A model generated the notes under the pieces. The model searched no databases, had not been told where the DNA came from, and saw only the letters and a program-made list of their open reading frames with translations. The translations under genes were made by a program, and so were the position numbers. A DNA stretch of 64,000 nucleotides, from assembly GCA_037447655.1 (NCBI GenBank), contig JBBHKE010002557.1, positions 62,001-126,000 of the forward strand, written 5' to 3'. The stretch's first letter is position 1. Each line of letters starts with the position of its first letter. Shown one piece after another: positions 4,730-62,350 of the stretch. This stretch comes from Zygnema cylindricum (taxonomy: Eukaryota > Streptophyta > Zygnematophyceae > Zygnematales > Zygnemataceae).

Positions 4730-5648
4730 CCTTAGGAGGTCTAAAATACTTGGTGCGACGGTTGTTGTAGGTCAGAATCCCATTGCCTGTTCTTGTTCCT
4801 ATACTATCGATGTTGTCGTGAGTCTAGCTTTGCTGGCGAATATCATTCATGCAGCTCTTTTGCGATATGCATAGCTGTTGGGGAAGGAAATCGAGGTTTT
4901 TAGGGCTTGCCTTGGGGTCCTTGGTTCGTTGCATTGGAAGAACGGGGGATTATCAACCTTGGTCGCTGGTGTGGCCATCTCCTTGGTCTGAGGATTTGTT
5001 GCAGAGTTGTCTGGGGATCTGTTTTGTGGTTCTATAAGAGTTGGTGGAGGACTGAAAAAAGGATTAGATTTGTCCAATAAGCCCGAAATTGGTGAGCCCT
5101 TGATCCCACTTGCGCTGCATCGAAAACAAGTGGAGCTCCCAAAACTTGCGTAAATTGGTTCTAGCTATTGGCGACCTGTTTTCTTTTATCATCTCCCGCG
5201 TGGACATTTTCGAAGACGTACCCCACTGGTGAGTCTTAGAACTGTGCAGCTGGGAAATTAATATGATCATGTGGAAGAAGGTTCGACTTCGGATGTCCTG
5301 ATGCCCTTCACCTTTTCTTGCTAGAGAGTATCCTTGACACGGCCATCCTGCTATTACCATATCTACTCTTTCCACCATGGCTAGATGGGGTTCCAGGATG
5401 TTGTCAACATTTTGGGGAAGACTTCGGTGAGCTCTGCAGATTGAAGATATGGGAAGTTGTTGGGGATACAATTGGTGAAGTTGTTGTAGTCGGTGTTCAC
5501 TAACAGCTTGGGCTTTCGGTGAGATTTCCACGGCTACATAAGACTTTACCTTATATCGTGCCTTCAAAACAACTTCTAGGTCCGAGTTCATTCCGAAGAA
5601 AACTGATAATATTCTGAGTCCGGAATTAGCAACTGATAGTGACACCAC
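4730..5648 (-). pseudogene. C5-cytosine DNA methyltransferase domain inside gypsy element 1
   Basis: The ORF starting at 5,648 shows methyltransferase motif I (LRILSVFFGMNSDLEVVLKA, then YVAVEIS for motif II) and motif IV (VIAGWPCQGYSLARKG), whose Cys is the catalytic nucleophile. After a frameshift near 5,225 the next frame gives motif VI (GYVFENVH) and a motif VIII-like GSRAHQFRAYWTNL. The order I-IV-VI-VIII is canonical and not circularly permuted as in plant DRM. The late AHxxRAYWxN pattern resembles DNMT3-like enzymes, while PCQ resembles DNMT1/CMT/Dnmt2. It lies between protease and RT of the retroelement. At least one frameshift and one stop inactivate it. Confidence 0.85.
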
Positions 5649-5849
5649 CTGTCAATTTTAATTTTTGGCTTTCGAGCAGAACCACCGAAGGTTCCGACTA
5701 AGGCTTGGAGGTCTTGTTCTTTGTAGAAACAGCCAAAAAAGACTCGTCCACTCCTCGCCAAAGTGTGGCTATCAGTGATAATCTGCTTTGGTATCCCTCT
5801 TCCCACTGCTTGGAAATATAGAATTGTTATATCACCTGGGGGATGTCTA

Positions 5850-12703: not shown

Positions 12704-13740
12704 TTGCCTGCTGTAGAGCCTAGAAAAATGGATTGGACCCTAGGGGAGCAGTTGGATCCTCAGCTTAAGGCGCGGCTCTCCGAGCTATTGGCCGAAAATA
12801 AACAGGTGTTCTCATGGTCAGAAACAGATGTTGGTATTTACAAAGGAACACCTTTCCGAATTGATTTGATTGATGAGACGGCTACTGTATGGCAAAAGCA
12901 ATATCCTCTCAGTTTCAAGGAAAAGGAATTCATCACGGCTAAAGTCTAGACTTTGGTGGACGCCGGATTGGTTTAGGAAAGTACCGCACTTCATGGGTTT
13001 GCTTCTCCCACAGTTCTCCCTCTCAAGAAGAACTCGTTCGAGAAGACTGTAGATTTCCGGATACGCGGAGATTATCGCATGCTGAACACGGCCACCATCT
13101 CTGACCGGTATCCGATGTCGACTCCGGAAGAGATATTCGACTCTCTTACTGGCGCCACTATATATTCCACTATGGACATGAAGAATGGTTTCCACCACAT
13201 TGCCATGGAACCGAAGCACAGGGAGAGAACTGCATTTTGGGCTGGTTCCAGACTTTATGATGGATTTACATGCTTTTCGGGCTTAAGAATACACCGGAAA
13301 AATTCCAACGGGCAATGGACAAAGCGCCTCGAGGAATCGATTGTGTCCGGTGCTATATTGATGATGCTATTATATTCTCAAAGACTTTTGAGGAACACTA
13401 CGAACATATCCAGATCGTTCTTCGGGCACTCCAAAAAGCGGGTTTGAAATGTCACCCGGGCAAAGGCATTTTTTGGGTACAGAAAATCATTTACCTCGAA
13501 CATGAAGTGACTCCCGGGACTGTGGGTCCCCACATGGTCAAAATAGTAAGTTAACCGGCAAACTCGCCAGATGGGTTCTTTTTCTGCAAGAATATGATTT
13601 CGACATTGTTCATAGGGCACGGGAAATCCATAGGAATGCCAACGGACTTAGCCGGAATCCTGATCCCTCCACCATTGATTCTACCGGGCTCGGCATGATG
13701 ACGACCTTAAGATCAGTCTAGGAATCATTCGAGCATCCTC
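12704..13740 (+). pseudogene. gypsy element 2 reverse transcriptase and RNase H
   Basis: The first ORF (12,704-12,949) is the RT N-terminal part (LSELLAENKQVFSWSETDVG). GDYRMLNTATISDRYPMSTP and ATIYSTMDMKNGFHHIAM follow near 13,060-13,210, and the palm motif CYIDDAIIFSKT lies near 13,345-13,380 with both catalytic Asp kept. The RNase H end (LARWVLFLQEYDFDIV, then SRNPDPSTIDSTG) lies at 13,560-13,690. Two in-frame TAGs near 12,947 and 12,974 and several frameshifts break it. Confidence 0.87.
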
Positions 13741-22682: not shown

Positions 22683-25600
22683 TCACAACAATTCTTTTAA
22701 AAAGTTGTACATTTGAACCACCCAAGTATCTGGTGGTCCTGGTAAACAATAATGCAAACAGTCCATTCCTTTTCCAACTTGCCCACGGTGACTATCGGGT
22801 CTTAAAGCAGTCGAAAAGTCGACATCCATATAAACTCCTCCTATTTCTTCCACATACTTTCGGGCGATTTCGTTTTGGTGGGAAAATTTACCCCAATTGT
22901 AAGGAAGATTTGAGGGATCTTGACGAACTGAAATAGGTCCAGGATAGGCGTCGCAGTTGTCATGTCCTGTAGTGAAAGTAAAATGTTGAGATACTTTATT
23001 AGACACTTTTTTAGTTGTCACTTTATTAAGTCTCATTTCTAAATATAAAGCACAGATCGGCAACAGAAAAAGCATACTAATAGGTAGACAGACCATAGCA
23101 TGTACGAAGAGCTTTCTGAAAGTGTATTTAAAAAAAAACCCAAAAATACAAAAATTGAAATGAAAAAGGAAAAGAAATGTAATTATTTGCAAATATTGAA
23201 GTACCTGGAGGCGTATTTCTCCAAATAACGAGAGCATTTGGAAGCTTTTCCCGAACGTAATATAGTGCGTTTTTCACATCAGGTTCAAAAATTTCGTCCG
23301 CTCGATAATGGGCGCCTCGATTCAAAACAAGAATTGAAGGTTTCCATTCATGCAATTTTAAAATCCATGGCGCTTCTCCATCTAATGGAACCTCAGTCAA
23401 TGTCAGACCTCGGTTAAAACAATATCGAATTTCTACCGGTTTCTCGAGAATGTCGTGACAATAGGAATATCCCAAACATTGACCGAATCTCAATCCGATG
23501 TCCCATTCTGGTAAACCCGTCGGGTACAAATCCACGGGAAGCATGTCCACTAAAGCGAGGAGGAAAGAAGAAAAAGGATAAACAAAGAAACAAGTCAAAG
23601 GGCGAAAATTAGTATCAGAGTGACATTGAGGCTCCTATAAAGCCTTTCAAGGTGTTTCTTTTTTGGATACCACGTACCTTCCGGGATTAAACTGGTCGCA
23701 AAACAAAATTATGGATAGTTTTTAGTTTTGAACCCAAAAGAGTTTGAAACTTTCAACAGTTCTAACATGAACTATTATTACAAGAAAACCAACTCATCTT
23801 TAACTTTCTCCAAAACCTACAAAACTACTTTTGAAATCTTGTATACATCCTAAAACTCTTTGGAAAAGCCTCCAAATTTTTTCAAAAAACCCTGAATTTT
23901 AAACCGCCTCAAAATTCTCCAGAAAACATCTTCAACTTTCTTAAAACTCACCATTGGTCATGTCAACTCCCAACAACATGTGAGCGAAAACATGTCGCTC
24001 AAAACTTCTCGTCATGGAATCTCCCACGAGAAGAATACTTCTTCCTGACCCCATGGTCCTGCAATCTCCCCCCCTTAACCATGTTACTAAACCCTATTTC
24101 AATTATAATCAATTCAAAAAAAGTAGAAAAAAAAATGTACGGGAAAAATATAAACCTTCAAATAAACAGTTAAAAAAAGGAGAAGAAGCATGACAAAAAA
24201 AGAATACCGGCCATTCCTGTTTCCAAGTCACACCTGTTCCCTGCCTGTCGTTATTAGAGTGAAACATTTATTAGTGTTTGATGCGAAATTAGAATAAACA
24301 ATACTAACTACTGCAAGGGGGGAGAGGGAGACGTGGCAGATACACCGTGTATCCACTATTAGTGTTAATGTTTTTTTCGCCACTTAAAACATGTTTTCTC
24401 CATACATACTTGTCGGATTGTGGATCTGACGGTTTCGATTGAAAGGTAGGATTCTCAGCTTCCGATTGGTGGTCTCAAATTGAAAATCCGACAAGTGTGT
24501 ACGGAGAAAAGTTGTTTGAAGTGGCGAAAAAAACATTAACACTAATAGCGATACACGGTGTAGTAGTCCACTCGATTAAATAATGTCGCTAACACTTTTA
24601 CAATTTCTTTCGACCAAAAAAAGTAGCCGTAGAACTAGCATTATCAACTCTAATAAGGGTGGCCAGTGTTTCTCACCTGCAGAATTCTTCCCTCGAAAAA
24701 CTTTCCAAAGGACACGTGTCGTCTGTTTTCCACTCCCATTTCAAACTATCCCGAACGCTCCAATTTCCCCCGTTTTCCGCGATTTTGTCCGATACGGCTC
24801 CGAAAATTCCGCCGGTTTTCGCGTGGCGGGAGTCACAAATCGAAATCGAATGCCACGGTTTTTTGATCCACGGTAAAGCTCGTGGCTCCGGATTAAATTT
24901 CCATTCGCCTTTCCGTACGAAACAGTTCAATTTTTTGTTTACTTTTCCGTACTCCTCTTTCGTACGTATTTTAGATCCGGGCAGAATACTTTTTAGTGCG
25001 GGCGCCGATTCGGGTCCTTTTCTCAAAAACTGCGAAACTGAAACACCTTCTACCGCTTGTTCCACGTAGGAATCGTCCGTATCGGCCGATTTTGCCGATT
25101 TTTGACGCATTTCCGGACTAGGAAGGGCTTTCGTCAGCATATTATAAAATAAATGAATCCAAGAATCCAAAATTCCGGGTTCGCAAACATCCACACATCC
25201 ACTGTATTTTGGGTCTCCTCCTGAATTTCCTTTTTCAATTAAATTTGTATCATAAACCCCTTTTATGCCCAAAATTCCATTTTGAGAAAGAAAATTTCCG
25301 GAATTTAGAAGTTGAGGTGGTCTTTTGGCGATTGTTTCGTTGACGTCCAAATAGAGACCGCCGAATTTTTCAACGATTTTTTTGGCGATTTTATTCCGGG
25401 CAGAAAATTCGGCGTCAGTGGGAGGGGGGCGGGAGACTAAAGAAGAGTCGTCGGAGGCAGAGAGGGAGGGAGAGTGAGAGGGAGTGCCGCAGGCACGGAC
25501 TGCAAGGAGAGGAGGGGAGGGAGAGGAGAGAGTTAGAAAGAGGAGGATAGGAAAAGGGTTGGGAGAGACATGGGGAGAGGACTGGAAAACGGGGAGGAGA

Positions 25601-27623
25601 TGGAGAGGGAGAGGGAGAGGGAGAAAGAGATGGAGAGGAGTTTTCTCTCTGTATAATGTCAGTCGAATTCCATTCTATCCCTTAGCCACGCCAATTACCC
25701 TCCCTCCCTCCCTCCCTCCCTCCTTCCTCTCTTTCCTCGCATATCCATACTACTTCATGTCTCCACTCTCTCACAATCCACGTTAATTCCCGTGCCAAAA
25801 CTCACCAGCAGGCGAATTCCGGTAAATGACGAGAGCGTCTGGATTCCGCCGCCGAATCAGACCGACGGCGGCTGTGACGTCACGCTCAAAGTCTTCCCGT
25901 GTGGACGCTTCCAGAGAGTGTGTCAGCATGACGACCGTGGGACGCCAGTACAGTCCTTTGGTCCACGGAACACCCCCATTGGACACCCCGTCTACAAGAG
26001 ATAAATCGGTGCTTCTTATGTATCGGACAGCCACCGATTCGCCGCCTAAAATATCGTGGCAGTATCGGTTTCCGGAACACATCTGTTTTTCCTTTCCTTT
26101 GTCCCATTCGGAACATCCGTCGGGGAAAAGGTTTACGGCGATGGTCTCTGAAAGAAAAGGGTAGGGAAAATGAAAAAAAGGAATGGGCAAATGAGTGGTT
26201 GAAAACGGTACAGAAAATGACAAAAAGGAATTGGAAATGAGTGGTTGGGAGAATGTGAAATATTTCAGATGAAGGGAAAAGGAAAAGGAAATTGTAGTTA
26301 AGTAAGCATGACATTTTAGGAAGTTTTTTTGCCATGGTAAAGTGAACAAGAAATCGCAAGAATTAGGAAAGGAAAGGGATTAACGATGAAAAAAATTGGG
26401 TGATTTCTTAAAAATAGAAAGGGTTTTACTTTTATTGCAGCTTCATTCTTTCGTCAATTTATGTTAGGGGAAAACCACATTTCTCGTTTTGTATAATTAT
26501 TTTTCGAAGGGTATTTGGGATTTAGGCAACATTTAAGTTCTGTTTCCCTAAGGGGTCATCATCGCCTTTGCTTTACGTAGTCGTAAAATATCGACTCATG
26601 ACATACATAATTACAAAATAGCAAATTACAAAATAACAAAGTTACAAACTTTCACAAAAATCTGATTGTAACACTACATCTGTCCGCCGTCAGAGTCCGT
26701 ACACGTTGTAGCGTCACGGAGTTAGCGTGACTTTTGAGGTTTTGTTGACGATGTAAAAAAGGAAACAAGAAAAAAGAAAGAGAAAAAAAAAGTAAAAATT
26801 GCATCGATTGACATGCACCGATATTGGCGTGAATTGTTTTCAGTGAAAACCCTGAAATTTGGTAAACTTAGAAGTTTTTGGAGGATGAATGTTTTTGAGT
26901 ACATGTATTTCATTTTTACCGGATGCTTGTTTTGATTTATTTAATATGATTTTGCTTCTATACGGCATTGGAGTCTGTTTGTTGATCTTGCTTATGGACC
27001 TTAGAATATTTATTAGCTTTCTTATTATCTGTAGTTTTCTTTTGATGGAACTCTTCTTCTTTCCAAACGGGTTTAGTTTACGTTTATTTTTGATTTATTT
27101 ATCATTATTTTTTCGTTAGAACCTCTACCCATTATTCTACATACCTTATATTTTATTTTGACAAAGTATAGACCCGAAGCTGGTTGATTAAGGCCTTTTT
27201 TGCCCTCTTTGCCATAGATTGTAGATTTTTGAAAAATCAGAAAATATTTTTAACTTTTACCTAAATCTGGAGGTTGAAAAATGTTAACTGATTTGACCTT
27301 TTTTTTTTTTCTGTCTTGTTCTATTTCCAGTTCATATTCACTCGTCCATAAATCATCAAAAATTTCACCGACAGTGGGAGAAATTTCACTTTTCATTTAC
27401 TTATTTCACTTATTTATTTGTTTCTTTATTTCATAAGCTCACTTGGTTTAGAAGCCCGAATATTATAAAAAAGACGGCGTTCGAATCCCCAAGAAAGTTC
27501 GTCACCCACAATTAAAATACTCGCGTTTACGCCAAAAGCGGCTCCCAAGGTCCTACAAAAATAAAGGAAAAAGAAAAAAGAGGGAGAGAGAGAGGGAGAG
27601 AGGGAGAGGGCGAGGGAGAGAGA

Positions 27624-27663
<40 letters not shown>

Positions 27664-28325
27664 TTTACGCAGAGTTCTAATAAAAACAAAAAGTAAAGCA
27701 AAAACTTTCCCAACTTCAGCCAAAAACCGATAGAAACACGTCACTACCAGACAAAATAGCACAGAATTACATCAATATTTAAGCCTCCCAAATCCACCAG
27801 CCCAAAGAAAATAAACTGAAGAAAAAAAAAAGGGGGGAAAGAGAGGCAAGGGAGGATAAACCCATTTTTTTTCTCCAGGTAAAAAAAAAATTAACCTTAA
27901 AAAACCTCCCCCCACTATTCTCACCTGCAAAAATTCTCATAGTCAAAATCTTCCCATTCGCATCCCGCCGCCTGCCACTCCCACTTTGTGACATCTGTCA
28001 CATCTGCCGCCGCTCCTCCTCCTCCTCCTCCGCCATTGGCCGGGAATTTTGTCTTTTCTGCTCCCGCACGTGCGACCCTCGCCAGATCGCATTTCGTCGG
28101 CCGGCCATAAGACTCTTGGCTCCATGCCGGTTTCCGCTCCGTTCCGTTAAACGTCCACCTGCCCTTGGAAGTGTAGCAAGCGAGGGCGCTCCGTAAAAGC
28201 CGGCCACCGGAAATAGTGTGGACTTGGGAGCCGGGGATGCCGCCCAGGACAGGAGGGAGAGGAAAAGACAAAAAAAAGCATGCCAGGAGGAAAAAACAGA
28301 GGGAGGAGGAGGAGAAGACTGGCAT
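22683..28325 (-). CDS. Secreted tandem PC-esterase (PMR5/TBL-like) protein, two domains in one gene
   Basis: Seven exons with GT-AG introns: 28325-27925, 27552-27443, 26147-25806, 25436-24677, 24058-23952, 23549-23205, 22966-22683. They total 2,349 nt, exactly 782 codons plus TGA, and every junction keeps the frame. Residues 1-30 form a signal peptide or anchor (MPVFSSSSLCFFLLACFF). Domain 1 (about 50-385) has GRWTF, KWEW and the block I motif as VGDE (149-152) and ends GCVDVCEPGILDSW (364-377). Domain 2 (about 450-782) has GEWKF, KWEWK, VGDSM (549-553, nucleophile Ser552) and DCLHYCLPGPPDTW (757-770, catalytic Asp757/His760). Known relatives O-acetylate cell-wall polysaccharides in the Golgi; that role here is inferred. 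Domain 1 lacks Ser, Asp and His. A start at 28,490 is possible but adds a low-complexity leader. Confidence 0.9.
24243..24665 (+). mobile_element. Nested MITEs in intron 4 of the esterase gene
   Basis: An inner MITE (24,343-24,560, 218 bp) lies between TA dinucleotides. It has inverted repeats of nearly 60 bp, starting CACCGTGTATCCACTATTAG and ending CTAATAGCGATACACGGTG, with GCCACTT and AAGTGGC further in. It sits inside an older MITE whose left half (TGTCGTTATTAGAGTG to GAGACGTGGCAGA) and right half (TTAAATAATGTCGCTAACAC to CTCTAATAAGGG) align with 21,335-21,560. The outer right end lies about 10 bp from the exon-4 splice donor at 24,676. Confidence 0.78.
24677..25436 (-). other. Fusion exon joining esterase domain 1 to domain 2
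   Basis: This single 760-nt exon is open throughout. It encodes the end of domain 1 (FSARNKIAKKIVEKFGGLYL, then CVDVCEPGILDSW), a linker of about 80 residues rich in Ser, Lys and Glu, and the start of domain 2 (CFVRKGEWKF, KWEWK, FSREEFC). No stop or plausible intron separates the halves. This is the direct evidence that the two domains belong to one protein and not to two adjacent genes. Confidence 0.9.
25480..25725 (+). repeat. GGGAGA-rich and CCCT microsatellites in intron 3
   Basis: 25,495-25,640 is almost pure purine (GAGAGG and GGGAGA units). 25,699-25,725 is (CCCT)n. Both lie within intron 3 (25,437-25,805) of the esterase gene, where the coding strand is pyrimidine-rich before the acceptor. 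Confidence 0.8.
27578..27660 (+). repeat. GA microsatellite in intron 1
   Basis: GGGAGA units pass into a pure (GA)n run of about 30 bp. It reads as a CT tract on the coding strand, about 25-110 nt upstream of the exon-2 acceptor at 27,553. Confidence 0.85.
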
Positions 28326-28620
28326 GTTGAAAGGGGAAGAGGGAGAGAGGTGGAGAGGGAAGGGAAGGAGGTGAAGGAGACGGTGGGAAAGAGGGTGAGA
28401 GAGGAGAAGAGGGAGGGAGGGGAAAGAGAAAGAGACGGCGGAGGTAGGAGAGGGAGACAGAGAAAGAGTGTGAGGAAGAGAGAGTGTCAAAATAGTGTCA
28501 AATTTTCGGTCAAGTAGGAGAGTCCAGAATTTTGTGGGAGAGAGAGGAAGAGGGAGAGAGAGGAAGAAGAGTTAAGGGGAGAGAGGAGGGAGTGACAGCG
28601 GGATTGTTTACGAGGGAAAA
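28326..28620 (-). promoter_or_regulatory. CT-rich leader/core promoter region of the esterase gene
   Basis: The coding strand is over 90 percent pyrimidine in long stretches (CTCCCT and CTCTCT units) directly upstream of the ATG at 28,325. Pyrimidine patches and GAGA-type tracts are common in plant core promoters and 5' UTRs. No TATA box was identified. The upstream ORF at 28,818-28,510 has a hydrophobic stretch (LPPYILVTAALFCLFVAHL) and could be an alternative anchor exon, but the one junction I tried did not keep the frame. Confidence 0.4.
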
Positions 28621-28949
28621 GTCGGACGGTTCGGTCGACGTCGGCCGCTCAACAGATTCTGATTCGCCGGAATAGGATGGCCGGGTGTTAGGACCGAGCG
28701 GCAAGTGCGCCACAAACAGACAAAATAGCGCGGCCGTTACCAGGATGTACGGAGGTAATACTCCGTACGATAAAGTGTCCAATTCCAGATAGCTGGTACA
28801 CATTTTGTTGCAAGGCATTTTTACGGCTTCTGCTAATTTCTCCTGGGCAGAGCTAAAACAGCTATACTTTGTAGCTTCGGGAACAGTGAGCTACAAGACA
28901 GAAAAGTACTTTATCTGGTAGATTACAAAGTCCGCTGTACTATGCCGTA
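28621..28949. other. Upstream flank of the esterase gene
   Basis: CpG-containing sequence with GTCGACGTCGGCCGC near 28,637-28,651. The hydrophobic ORF mentioned above covers part of it. Nothing else was recognised. Confidence 0.35.
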
Positions 28950-46950: not shown

Positions 46951-49096
46951 AATGGCAAAAACAAGTTACCGAAAAAGAATTGCGAAAATGGTGGCGTTGA
47001 TGTGTTGTGAAGACCTTCGACCATTTTCGACGGTCGACGGTTCAGGTATGATTTATTTTAAATTCTATTTAAGATGGCTTTAGTGTAAATGTCATTATAA
47101 CTTGATTTGTTAATAAATTTATATATTTGAGCTTCATCACTATTTTCTTATAAATAATTTATATTCATATGCTTATTTAAATTTTTTTAATTATAATTTG
47201 GTTTGTCATGATGTTGTTGTTTATTTGTCCATCCATAAAAAAAAAAACGTTTTGGTAGAAACCTTCTTTATTAATCATGGTTAGTAATTGTATGATATTT
47301 TCTTATTGTTTTTTTTTGTTTTTTTTCCCAGGTTTTCAAGCATTTTGTCAAGCATTGTTTGATGTTGGTGTTTCGTCCAACAAAAGTGTTGACATCGACC
47401 AACTACTTCCGCTCGTCAATAATGTAAAAAACTACATTATATCTTTTTCGAAATATATTCGTAATTTGAACATCTCAAAACTTAGAGAAAATATTGATAA
47501 CAACGTTTTTGTCGCATTCACGACTAATCTCTAGACCGAGACAACCAAAAGAACCTCATTCATGTCAGTAACCGCTCATTTCATTGATAAAGAATTTAAA
47601 CTTTATGCACAAACCCTTCAAGTCGATCATTTTTCGAAGAAAAAACACACCGCGGAAAATGTTTTAACGGCTTTCAAAAATTGTTTGGCAAATTTTGAAA
47701 TGTCCAATTTTGATCTCGGCGTTGTCGTGATTGATATTGTCTGCGTTGTTGTGATTGATAGTGGATCTAACATGTGTGTGGCCCCTTCAAGTCGATCATT
47801 TTTCGAAGAAAAAACACACCGCGGAAAATGTTTTAACCGCTTTCAAAAATTGTTTGGCAAATTTTGAAATGTCCAATTTTGATCTCGGCGTTGTCGTGAT
47901 TGATATTGTCTGCGTTGTCGTGACTGATAGTGGATCTAACATGTGTGCGACTGAAGGTCTACCGAGTATGTTTACTTGGATACCTTGCGCGGACTATAAA
48001 ATTGCAACAATTGTGACAACAATCTTGAATAAGAGCGGAACTTCTAAAAAAGGCAAATACGATGTGGAAGTTCCTGATTTTTTTGATCTAATTGACGCAT
48101 GTAAATCATTGGTCACGTTTTTCAAACAGAGTAATTTACAAAATCTTTTGAAAAACACTTTAAAGCAAGAAAACGCAACGCGGTGGAATTCTTTGCTCCG
48201 AATGCTTAAGAGTATTTACGATGCATTCAATGAGATAGGACAAATCGCTCAAGCAAAAAATAAATTGATACTTTTTTCTTATATCGATAAGACTCACCTT
48301 ACCGAACTGTTACGATTTTTGGAAAGGTTTTAAGAAGCGACCCTAAAATTTGAAAAATTCAAAGAACCAACTTTACATTTGGTTTTGTTTGAACTATCGT
48401 CTCTCTATAACCATTGTTAGATAAGAAAAACATCTTACAATGACGGTGAAAAGGAATGCCCCGCCGATTCTCTAAACTTGCAAAAATTGAAACAACTTTT
48501 TGTGAAATTTGCAATACCGAAGTGGGGCCTTCATGAGTATCATATTGTCGCGGCTCTCTTAGATCCTTGACGAAAACAAAAGCTTGAAATAATTGGGGTA
48601 TCAAAAACCGATATTGAAAGCGCAAGGGTCAAACTTCGAGAACTCGCAAACGACCTCGGTGATGACGTTGATTTCGGAAGTCCTCAACGAATCACCAAAA
48701 AACGAAAAACATCGCAAAGTAAAGACGATTTCCACAATTTTTTTGGTGAGAGCGATGACGAAATTGAGGTTCTTATTACCACCGAAAAAAAAAAGCTCGT
48801 TAACGACGAAATGAAATGTTATTTTGATATCAAATTAAGGAGCGACGAAAGATTGAACTTTAACATACTTGAATGGTGGAAAAAAAAACCAAATGTACGT
48901 GTGAAGGATGGAGGATTTCCTATGCTAGCCGGTGTTGCTATATCTATTCTAGCTATTCCGGCTTCTAGCTTCATGTCCGAATGCAATTTTTCGGATGCCG
49001 GGAAAACGATAACAAAGAAGAGGAGCACATTAATGGCTTCAATTGTTAGTTATCTTTTGTGTGTTCGATCCAACCGAGATCTTTTAAATGCATAGT
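46951..49096 (+). pseudogene. hAT transposase, copy 2
   Basis: This parallels copy 1 from the KMVALMCCEDLRPFSTVDGS stretch on. A GT-AG intron (about 47,045-47,331, donor CAG-GTATGA and acceptor TTTTCCCAG) would join it to GFQAFCQALFDVGVSSNKSV. The first catalytic Asp is Asn and is followed by a TAG (FTTNL-stop). The second region reads VVVTDSGSNM. A 169-bp tandem duplication (47,614-47,951) breaks the frame. The dimerisation domain (AGVAISILAIPASSFMSECN) ends at 49,095. No BED finger was found. It is clearly homologous to copy 1 but diverged. Confidence 0.85.
47614..47951 (+). repeat. 169-bp tandem duplication inside hAT copy 2
   Basis: Units 47,614-47,782 and 47,783-47,951 begin CCCTTCAAGTCGATCATT and are almost identical, differing for example at GTTGTTGTGATT against GTTGTCGTGACT. 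As 169 is not a multiple of three, it shifts the frame. Confidence 0.93.
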
Positions 49097-54155: not shown

Positions 54156-55447
54156 CTAACAGATGTGTATAACTGGATGAATTTTTGTTGAAGGCGAAAA
54201 GTCCAATTTGGCAGCAATTGACGATACCATCTTGATTACAGTAAATGTTCTGACGTACTTATGAGCAAATTTCCGCGTAGGATTCGATTGTCTTTTGATC
54301 TTCCATCTGTAATGAGTTGTTGAAAGCCAAACTTTCTCACCTGTGCTTACCACTCTATCACCCGGTTTGCGGTTAGCATTTAATTCTTGCCTTCTTTGTG
54401 CCTCCACTAATGGATCCCGGTCTGTTTTCCAAACTATTTGAATGTATTCCCAAAACTCTGCTCCAAAACCCCTATATTTTTGACTGACCCCTGTTTTTAA
54501 ATCTAATGCTTCTCTCGGTAGGTACCCGTATACAACTTCAAACCGTGAGAATCTTGTACTAGCATGTTTACATGAATTGTATGCAAATGCCATTAATGGT
54601 AGTTTAGATTCCCATGTGTTCTGAATTCCACTGCTAACAGTCCTAAGCATTTCTTCAAGTGTATGGTTCATCCTTTCTGTCTGTCCATCTGTCTAAGGAT
54701 GATAAGAGGTACTCTTTTTTAATTCAGTGCCTAAATTTTGCTGCAATTCTTTCCTAAATGCAAACGTAAATTTTGAATCCCTATCACTGACTATAGACAA
54801 GGAAACTCGATGATGTTTGACCACGTTGTCAAAATATAACTTTGCAAAATCTACAACTGAATGAGTAGTTTTGCAAAGGATAAAGATTACCATTTTACTG
54901 AACCTATTGACTACGACCATGATATTGTCATTTCTTCTAGATGTAGCTGGTAACCTGAATGTTTTAAGAGACCTCTAGGTTTCTAGTTACTAGGTTTACT
55001 ATGTTGGCAAGGGACACAACTTTCCACCAGTTTCGACACCTCCTCTGCCATCTCGGGCCAAAACAATCTACTTTGCAACCGACCAAGAGTTTTATCTCGA
55101 CCTAGATGTCCTAAATGCTCATGGGCTTCTTGTAAAAGTTGTTTTCTTAAGTCTCTCATTTCACGAATGTATAATCTATCCCCTGTTTGCAAATACAGTA
55201 AACCATCTTCTATTCTAAAGTTTTTGAGATGCCTCTCATTTAATGGGTCAAAATTCCCTCTCGAAATATTTTTGCAAATCATAGCAAAATAAGGATATTT
55301 ATGATAACCATTTATAACAGCTTCTAAAGACAATTCGTCTCGAACCATCACATTTATATCAAAACATCTACTTAAAGGATCTGCGACTACATTTGTCTTT
55401 CGAAGAATATGTTTGACATTAAATTTGAAATATGCTAATTTCTGCAT
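54156..55447 (-). pseudogene. Integrase of the gypsy remnant
   Basis: The zinc region is HEHLGHLGRDKT followed by CVPCQHSK. The core has VVVNRFSKM, VSDRDSKFTFAFRKEL with the second Asp, and YHP-stop-TDGQTERMN with the Glu. The stop is a TAG exactly where nearly all gypsy integrases have Gln (HPQTDGQTE). The segment with the first Asp lies in a broken stretch near 54,930-54,980. Confidence 0.87.
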
Positions 55448-59310: not shown

Positions 59311-59328
59311 ATGATCTGACATAAACGT

Positions 59329-60330
59329 TTGGGACATGTACATTTTGATGGACGAAGGGAAATGAAGAAGCTGGGTGTAGTCGAAGGCATTCAGTTTGGG
59401 GAGAATGAAATGATGGATGATTGTAGTGGCTGTGCCCAAGGTAAGGCTCACAGACTTCCCTTTCCCAAAACTATCACATATAGAGGTGAGAAAGTACTAG
59501 ATATGGTCCACACAGATATTTGGGGACCAGGAAGAGTACCTTCGGTTGGGGGGAAGAGGTATATGCTGACAATTACTGATGATTGGTCCAGATATTCCAA
59601 AGTCTACTTCTTAAAAACAAAGTTTGAAACACCAAAATACTTTAAAGAATACAAATCCTGGAGTCTGAAGTTGCACGGAACCCCCATTAAGAGAATAAGG
59701 AGTTATAATGGGGGAGAGTACACCTCTAACCATTTTGAGGATTATTTGAGAGATGAGGGAGTTGAGCATCAGAAAACTGTACCAAATAATCCAAAACAGA
59801 ATGGTGTAGCTGAGAGGTTAAACCGGACTTTAGGAGATAATGTATGCTGTATGTTGGCAGATAAGAAAATAGGAAGAAGATTTTGGGCAGAAGCCATGAA
59901 CTGTGCTAACTACATTAAAAATAGAGTCCTCACTACAGCTGTTAAAGGGATGACCCTTTATGAGAGATGGGTTGGAAGAAAACCGAATATCTCTCACTTG
60001 AAAGTATTCGGTAGTCAAGTTTACAATCTTTACACAGATAAGAAAAACTGGAAACTAGATGCTAAAGGGAAATCGAGATATTTTGTGGGATATGATGAGG
60101 ATGTCAAGGGATATAGAGTCTATGACTTAGCTAAACAAGATATCATTCTGGTAAAACATCTAGTTGTCATGAATGAAGGGAAGTCTTTTGATCCCTCCAA
60201 ATACACTAAGAAAATCAGAATCAGTTTTGAGTCCGAGAGTGAGGAGGCCTTAGATCTTTCCAGAAGGGACACTAGTGAAAACATAATTGCATATCCATGG
60301 GAGATAAAAGATGGAGGAGATATACCGTAA
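59329..60330 (+). pseudogene. Copia element A integrase (333-codon ORF)
   Basis: GAG-pre-integrase and zinc region: GHVHFDGRREMKKLG and CSGCAQGKAHRLPFP. Core: VHTDIWGPGRVPS (first Asp), IRSYNGGEYTS (the second catalytic Asp of the usual SDNGGEY is Tyr) and QNGVAERLNRTL (Glu). KVFGSQVYNLYTDKKNWKLD and RYFVGYDEDVKGYRVYD end the domain. It is the longest ORF in the window, but the Asp-to-Tyr change should inactivate it. Neighbouring stops TGA (59,317) and TAA (60,328) split it from protease and RT. Confidence 0.9.
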
Positions 60331-60720: not shown

Positions 60721-61447
60721 GTTTTTGGAAAGCTTTTTGTCTCAGCAAATTAGTAGGGCGACAAAAAGGTGGTAATTTGAAGCGTAAGGTTATGCGTCAT
60801 CACTTGAGGACAACGCAGCTGCTATGCATACAGAGCAACGCAGCAACGTAGCTGCTGTGCAGACAGAGTAGCCCAGCTGCTATGCAGACAGAGCAGCGCA
60901 ACAGCGAAGCTGCGACACAAACAGGACAAACGCAGCTGCAGTTATTTTGGATATGATCCGTACAGACAACGCAGCTGCTGCTACCTTCGATATGATTCGG
61001 TACGAGACACCGCAGCTGCTTTTGATATGAATCAGGTCAACAGACCTCAACTTAGTGGGTAGCTCAGTAGTAGCTTAGTGGTAGCTCAGTGGTAGCTTAG
61101 TGGTACCTCAGTGGTAGCTTGACAGATTAGTATTAGCCTAGTAGAGTGATGTATCTCTCAGGTACACTAGTATTGCCAGTACAACACAAGTATAATACTT
61201 AGAACTCAAAACACATCTTGTATCCAGACTTACAAGTAGTAAAACTGCAAACAATTTTTGGGAAACTTATGAGCATAATATCTTGAGTGTTTTCAGGTCA
61301 ATTGTGCTGAAACTTTGGGAGTTGTCAGTGTTTATGCTACTCTATATTCTGATAGAGTTTTGAGAGGTTTAGATGCTTGTGTAAGAATTGGTGAGCACTT
61401 GAAAACAGCTGTTTGGTAGGATTCTTCATAGCTTCTGAGAGTGTATC
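60721..61447 (+). promoter_or_regulatory. Probable LTR/leader of copia element B with tandem repeats
   Basis: The sequence changes at about 60,720 and leads to the gag ATG at 61,448. GCAGCTGC-type palindromes recur every 25-40 bp at 60,818-61,020. An 11-bp unit (AGCTTAGTGGT / AGCTCAGTGGT) repeats about six times at 61,056-61,122. Such arrays are typical of U3 enhancers. There is no second LTR in the window, so the boundaries are inferred. Confidence 0.5.
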
Positions 61448-62350
61448 ATGTCCACTTCTACTACTAATGCTGCTCCTCCACCCGCAACGGTGATCGTAGA
61501 ACAACAAGTTATGGGCCCATATTCAAGAATTCCTATCTTTCTGGGGGAAAAGTATGTTTACTGGGCGGATATGGTGGAGACACATTTTGAGAATGTCAAT
61601 CTTTTGGAAATATTGGATGGTTCGCTGGATGAATCTGATCCATCATGGTCTAAGAAAAATACGCAAGCTCGTTCTATTCTAAAATTTTGTATATCTGAGG
61701 ACTTAGCTATGTCTCGGATAAAAATGAAAAAAGCAATTGATATCTGGAAATCTCTTAAAACTGATTATGAAAAAGCTAATGTCCAAGAAGAGCTTCTATT
61801 GGCTGGAAAAATTTTGGACTATAAGTACACTGGCGGTACAATGGCTAAATATTTTAACAAATTCCGCATTCTTATAGATGCACATGCTTGTGCAAGTGGG
61901 GTGTTTCATCCGTTTCAACAGGTTGTTTTGCTCATGAAGGGTCTCCCTCGTAGTATGAAAGGAGCATCTGACATGCTCAAACAAAAAGATAAAGCTAGCT
62001 GGAATTTACAGTTAGCCATCAATATTTTACTAGAGGAAGAAGCTACATCTAATATTCTCAATGTTGAGCAAGTACAGCCTTTTAATTCAGACTTTGGGAA
62101 GAAAGGTCAGTTTAATCATTAACGTACTCAGTTTAACTAGTTCAGACAATTTAATCAAGATGGAAATAGACAATCGAACAATGTATGTTTTTATTGTAGT
62201 GAGAGAGGTCATAGATACAAATTCTGTCCTAAACTTAAACATGCTAACGATACGAGTAAATATAGGCCGGGATGGCAACAAAGTCTGTTTTTCAAAAGCT
62301 TCACGGGGCCTACACCTCGTGGAAATGCATTGTTTTCAGCCTTTTCATCA
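61448..62350 (+). pseudogene. Copia element B gag
   Basis: 224 codons start MSTSTTNAAPPPATVIVEQQ and share VMGPYSRIPIFLGEKYVYW with the other copia gags here. The typical helical gag core follows (EELLLAGKILDYKYTGGTMA, then LLMKGLPRSMKG). After TAA (62,120) and TAG (62,138), both at expected Gln codons, an intact CCHC knuckle follows: CFYCSERGHRYKFC at about 62,183-62,224. It packages element RNA. Confidence 0.85.

Follow-up and report, generated by a model that had tools for sequence, protein, structure and literature searches.

The 64,000 nucleotides of Zygnema cylindricum DNA analysed here (positions 62,001 to 126,000 of contig JBBHKE010002557.1; this whole stretch is called the window below) contain a gene for two PC-esterase domains in tandem, the second with the motifs of a complete catalytic triad and the first without them. 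The gene lies on the minus strand, at 28325-22683, and consists of seven exons that join in frame across GT..AG introns. Exon 1 (27925..28325) provides the start codon, a hydrophobic N-terminus that could be a signal peptide or an anchor, and the N-terminal part of domain 1. Exon 2 (27443..27552) carries block I of domain 1, which reads VGDELSWGFERR where the GDS motif is expected, and exon 3 (25806..26147) encodes the core of domain 1, including a block III with T in place of the N of domain 2. Exon 4 (24677..25499, with the start corrected as explained below) holds in one open frame the C-terminal part of domain 1, the linker and the N-terminal part of domain 2. Block I of domain 2, with the sequence VGDSMTR and the nucleophile Ser573, is found in exon 5 (23952..24058) and the core of this domain in exon 6 (23205..23549). 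Exon 7 (22683..22966) contains the GHDNC block, the DCLHYC motif with Asp778 and His781, and the stop codon. The genome positions of the motifs, calculated by hand from the exon table and likewise on the minus strand, are 27498-27506 for the GDE of domain 1 (residues 150-152), 25183..25200 for GCVDVC, its degenerate version of D-C-x-H-x-C (385-390), 24016-24024 for the GDS of domain 2 (571-573) and 22746-22763 for DCLHYC (778-783).

The seven in-frame exons agree with the initial annotation of this locus, which had arrived at 782 codons with exon 4 starting at 25436. That start was set aside in favour of 25499, the most likely first position of exon 4, 21 codons earlier. The 25499 acceptor is preceded by a pyrimidine tract, reads TTGCAG, is in phase and brings back a conserved Cys. 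The homologue P0001 (84% identical) has residues matching the stretch that a start at 25436 would drop, and spliced alignments with P0001 and with the translation of another copy from the same genome (C1157) both choose 25499. The more distant homologue P0002 led the spliced alignment to 25436, together with spurious small exons. The resulting protein has 803 residues, divided into domain 1 (approximately 44-412), a linker (approximately 413-455) and domain 2 (approximately 456-803). Domain 1 ends and domain 2 begins within one open exon, with neither a stop nor an intron between them; none of 2000 dinucleotide shuffles of this bridging exon was open in any of the six frames. An upstream open reading frame (28510-28890, minus strand) with a hydrophobic stretch could serve as another 5' exon or be a chance occurrence. 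It was left aside because P0002-P0004 and the copies from the same genome also start with a hydrophobic stretch before the first domain.

The two halves are homologous to each other, with 36% identity over 337 aligned residues, and a profile made from five domain 1 sequences picks domain 2 of the window protein out of 25 proteins with an E-value of 7.8e-72. In the Pfam search, PF13839 matches domain 2 only (48.4 bits for a cut-off of 27); domain 1 on its own has no match to this family. PF14416 (PMR5N) gave no match up to an E-value of 1 with the whole protein or with either half, while L002, a TBL protein encoded in the same genome, matches it at 57.8 bits. Of the two Pfam families expected from the initial annotation, then, PF13839 is found in one half and PF14416 in neither, and a Pfam survey can overlook a dead half, as happened with domain 1. 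Over domain 1, the predicted models give matches to the SGNH fold. The best structural match of the protein is PDB 6cci, which is also its best sequence match in the PDB, albeit a weak one (E = 0.0012). Domain 1 is recognised as a PC-esterase domain because of its homology to domain 2 and these fold matches, and the tandem of two such domains stands on that basis, the fold of the first being a prediction.

The alignment places Ser573 (GDS), Asp778 and His781 (DxxH) at the triad positions of domain 2; they are the residues that the shorter gene model had numbered Ser552, Asp757 and His760. At the same positions domain 1 has Glu152 for the Ser, Gly385 for the Asp and Asp388 for the His, in agreement with the loss of the triad first noticed from GDE and GCVDVC. 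The difference extends beyond the triad: 14 positions, triad included, are conserved in 90% or more of 18 sequences of domain 2 or of single-domain proteins and are missing in all five domain 1 sequences. A further 26 positions, including eight Cys, are common to domain 1 and the domain 2/single-domain sequences. Judged by its sequence motifs, domain 2 is catalytically competent and domain 1 is not.

The assembly (352.8 Mb in 2689 contigs) was searched for related genes and gave 29 exon-level matches to PF13839 and 35 to domain 1, alleles possibly included. Eighteen genome stretches of up to 10 kb each were aligned to the tandem proteins with a purpose-written spliced aligner, which recovers the exon ends of the window gene when given P0001 and adds false small introns at gaps. 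After this search the fusion can no longer be taken for a single oddity: the genome has six or more additional loci, some of which may be alleles, with the tandem layout in whole or in part. The most complete is C1157 (L021), whose seven-exon alignment covers query residues 7 to 803 and contains no stop. Parts of both domains are found in C575 (L028), C573 (L026), C1178 (L029), C1346 (L030) and C1940 (L022); exon 3 of C575 is only partly recovered and its domain 1 match contains two TGA codons, and exon 5 of L026 was not recovered. In C2034 (L025) and in a second C573 copy (L027), only domain 1 is readable and the stretch ends there. Block I of domain 1 was readable in seven loci, window included, and is GDE in all of them; the C-terminal motif of this domain was readable in seven and is without Asp and His in each; and the GDS of domain 2 is present in 5/5 (window, L021, L028, L029 and L030). 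These counts rest also on reading the translations, since the motif patterns were written after the translations had been read and, used alone, would leave an intact domain 1 unreported. Three near-identical loci (L034-L036) have only exon 3 of domain 1 and exon 7 of domain 2 within their 10 kb, which suggests a duplicated deletion derivative. The tandem family has expanded and partly decayed in this genome. Separately, a single-domain relative (L037, on C1607) has GDV in place of the nucleophile GDS and retains DCHH; it is possibly a second, independent pseudo-esterase.

Tandem proteins are also found outside this genome. Four of the 23 matches of the protein search (P0001-P0004) have both halves. 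P0002-P0004 are transcripts, as their Trinity-style names indicate, and P0001 is probably one too: its source contigs have at most 3044 bases and its open reading frame is uninterrupted where the window gene has introns. The window protein is 83% identical to P0001 in domain 1 and 88% in domain 2. P0002 and P0004 have only about 35-36% of their domain 1 residues in common with the window protein; their domain 1 has retained an open frame and its Cys. When the tandem alignment was used for a second protein search, the only matches were P0001 and a fungal protein, and P0002-P0004 were missed; a third search, started from P0002 domain 1, found P0001-P0003 and missed P0004. Since both searches missed known members, the tandem family may be more widespread. 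The organisms that carry it look like algae related to land plants, and the named relatives among the matches, Closterium and Marchantia, indicate a streptophyte.

The origin of the tandem is reflected in its introns. Introns 1, 2 and 3 correspond to introns 4, 5 and 6, with phases 2, 1 and 1; in two of the pairs both introns occupy one and the same alignment column, and in the third they are at most three columns apart. This correspondence indicates that the gene arose by tandem duplication and fusion of a gene that already had introns. The phylogeny was first reconstructed with 13 of the 20 non-tandem matches, P0008, P0017 and P0019-P0023 being omitted as near copies or incomplete. The domain 1 sequences form a clade (100/100), as do the domain 2 sequences (86/88), and together they exclude the 13 single-domain sequences (98/97); the branching order is the same in both halves. 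The same clades are kept (100/100, 82/77 and 96/95) in a second tree to which copies from the same genome were added, with four of the eight loci from the genome search. The simplest reading of these sequences would be a single duplication and a single loss of the domain 1 triad, in the common ancestor of the tandem members and thus before the split of the tandem lineages found.

Selective constraint was estimated from the ratio of nonsynonymous to synonymous substitution rates (dN/dS) between copies. For exons 1-3 of domain 1, the pairs among five copies (L021, L022, L025, L026 and L027, the window copy being left out) give values of 0.28-0.44 in 10/10 cases, with a highest upper 95% bound of 0.77. 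For domain 2, the six pairs among L021, L026, L029 and L030 give 0.35-0.70, and four pairs with a short stretch of L022 (96-97 codons) give 0.37-1.01. Some copies are broken, so that these values reflect earlier constraint and recent decay together. Among the window copy, C1157 and C575, three of the six comparisons have no synonymous rate (dS); domain 1 of the window gives a dN/dS of 0.18 with C575 and no value with C1157. As judged from exons 1-3 of the sister copies, the dead domain 1 was under constraint. Domain 1 combines a conserved loss of the triad with constraint, as expected of a pseudo-enzyme, the constraint being drawn from the five sister copies and not from the window copy.

The region of the former nucleophile has acquired a conserved motif of its own. 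It reads G[DG][ED]xxWGxE[RK]R in all 11 readable domain 1 sequences, seven from loci of the same genome and four from the homologues. The residue that replaces the nucleophile Ser is acidic in every domain 1 read, and Asn or Asp stands in place of the His. The spacing of residues 152, 155, 156, 160, 163 and 167 is compatible with their lying on a single face of the subsequent helix; position 163 is occupied by Tyr in five aligned sequences and by Phe in the C1157-type copies.

It seems fairly probable that domain 2 moves or removes an acyl group of a wall glycan and that domain 1 acts as a pseudo-enzyme, either holding the glycan or supporting domain 2. The initial interpretation is thus partly supported: an esterase domain lacking its triad is fused to an intact one and conserved in relatives, with constraint in sister copies, and the regulatory or glycan-binding role of domain 1 is a proposal. 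With its hydrophobic N-terminus, the protein would enter the secretory pathway and would probably be secreted or reside in the Golgi lumen. Domain 2 would form an acyl-enzyme at Ser573 and then transfer or hydrolyse the acyl group, most likely an acetyl, on a cell-wall polysaccharide. Domain 1 would hold the glycan chain, or support domain 2, through the surface beside the former nucleophile, which the new motif would mark. A bolder version, in which domain 1 has been rebuilt so that its old active site is now a binding or acid-based catalytic site for the glycan chain that domain 2 also works on, is unlikely; if true, the two domains would constitute a two-step or processive editor of wall polysaccharides.

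Other explanations have to be weighed against this reading. Domain 1 could be a purely structural partner, required for the folding of domain 2, for exit from the endoplasmic reticulum or as one half of an intramolecular pseudo-dimer, with no role in binding. This is a possible, somewhat doubtful interpretation: the 26 positions, eight Cys among them, that domain 1 has in common with the domain 2/single-domain sequences favor it, as does the constant association of the halves in the window gene, the four homologues and the six further loci, yet the newly conserved residues cluster just behind the dead nucleophile and resemble a reshaped site, a pattern that an interface could also produce. That domain 1 is a functionless relic carried along with domain 2 seems very improbable. 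Such a relic would explain the stops and the weak constraint over exon 4 described below, but not the low dN/dS of exons 1-3 in all ten pairs, nor the open domain 1 with its Cys in homologues as distant as P0002 and P0004. Finally, either half alone looks like a complete single-domain esterase, and two adjoining genes might have been merged in the first reading of the sequence. The open exon between the halves, the presence of both in P0001-P0004 and the alignment of C1157 in the same seven exons rule out such an artifact for practical purposes.

Several observations nevertheless weigh against the pseudo-enzyme interpretation. The part of domain 1 encoded by exon 4 (91 codons, 10 pairs) has dN/dS values of 0.25-1.51, and 6/10 intervals include 1. 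All comparisons that include the window copy are saturated or close to it. L022, L025 and L029 have one stop each, a sign that some members of the family are decaying. In the second tree, the branching order of C575 and C1157 differs between the two halves, with weak support. The predicted models are of modest confidence (predicted local distance difference test scores of 68 and 64, predicted template modelling scores of 0.52 and 0.47), and the packing of the domains is accordingly uncertain. Lastly, acetyl transfer is an extrapolation, as the family lies outside the canonical TBL clade.

Enzymes of polysaccharide acetylation are usually regarded as single-domain proteins whose specificity is difficult to explain. 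An enzyme fused to its own inactivated copy and kept so through a deep divergence would offer a test of how a dead domain tunes glycan recognition, and the long retention of this domain, apparently by selection, points to a lasting non-catalytic job. The rest of the window contains retrotransposon fragments (integrase, Copia-type gag and a match to reverse transcriptase that falls short of its cut-off) as well as a hAT dimerisation region, at 2165-2629, 12977-13447, 48571-49095, 54156-54692, 59320-60330 and 61439-62122. A fragment at 5064-5651 on the minus strand matches the C-5 cytosine DNA methylase family PF00145 (28.9 bits for a cut-off of 22).

The closest known systems are the PC-esterases of plants and algae. 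In a review (PMC11360243), TBL proteins are described as having GDS and DxxH motifs and losing activity when these are mutated, and two TBLs of Klebsormidium nitens as acetylating pectin; AXY9 likewise has both motifs (PMC6110886). The available portions of the literature yielded no report of a dead-plus-active tandem, or of a pseudo-enzyme domain, in the TBL/PC-esterase family. Domain 2 resembles the plant TBL/DUF231 polysaccharide O-acetyltransferases (for example XOAT1/ESK1, PDB 6cci) in its PC-esterase fold and its GDS and DxxH motifs; the window protein differs from them in having two catalytic-type domains, the first without a triad, and no PF14416. In the second tree, whose TBL side is made up of sequences from the same genome with no Arabidopsis TBL, the four TBL sequences split off (97/99), three of them being fragments of 265 or 279 residues. 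Because PF14416 is missing and these sequences branch apart, the gene belongs, by sequence, to the PC-esterases and not to the canonical TBLs; of the original label, PC-esterase (PMR5/TBL), the first part is retained. Closterium proteins (P0005-P0010, P0013 and P0015-P0023) have the same type of esterase near their C-terminus, and no second esterase domain was found in them with the two profiles used. In P0005-P0008, P0013, P0015, P0016 and P0018-P0023 the esterase follows a different long N-terminal part, with a PF04577 match on P0021, which may be a true fusion or a gene-model error. The single-domain PC-esterases (P0011 of Marchantia, P0012 and P0014) have RNTPPGHxNC and DCLHYC as in the window protein, and P0012 is the single-domain sequence nearest to its domain 2 by tree path; all three have one esterase domain and fall outside the clade of both tandem halves (98/97). 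Domain 1 is instead comparable to pseudo-enzyme domains in general, in which the catalytic motifs are lost while fold and constraint are kept.
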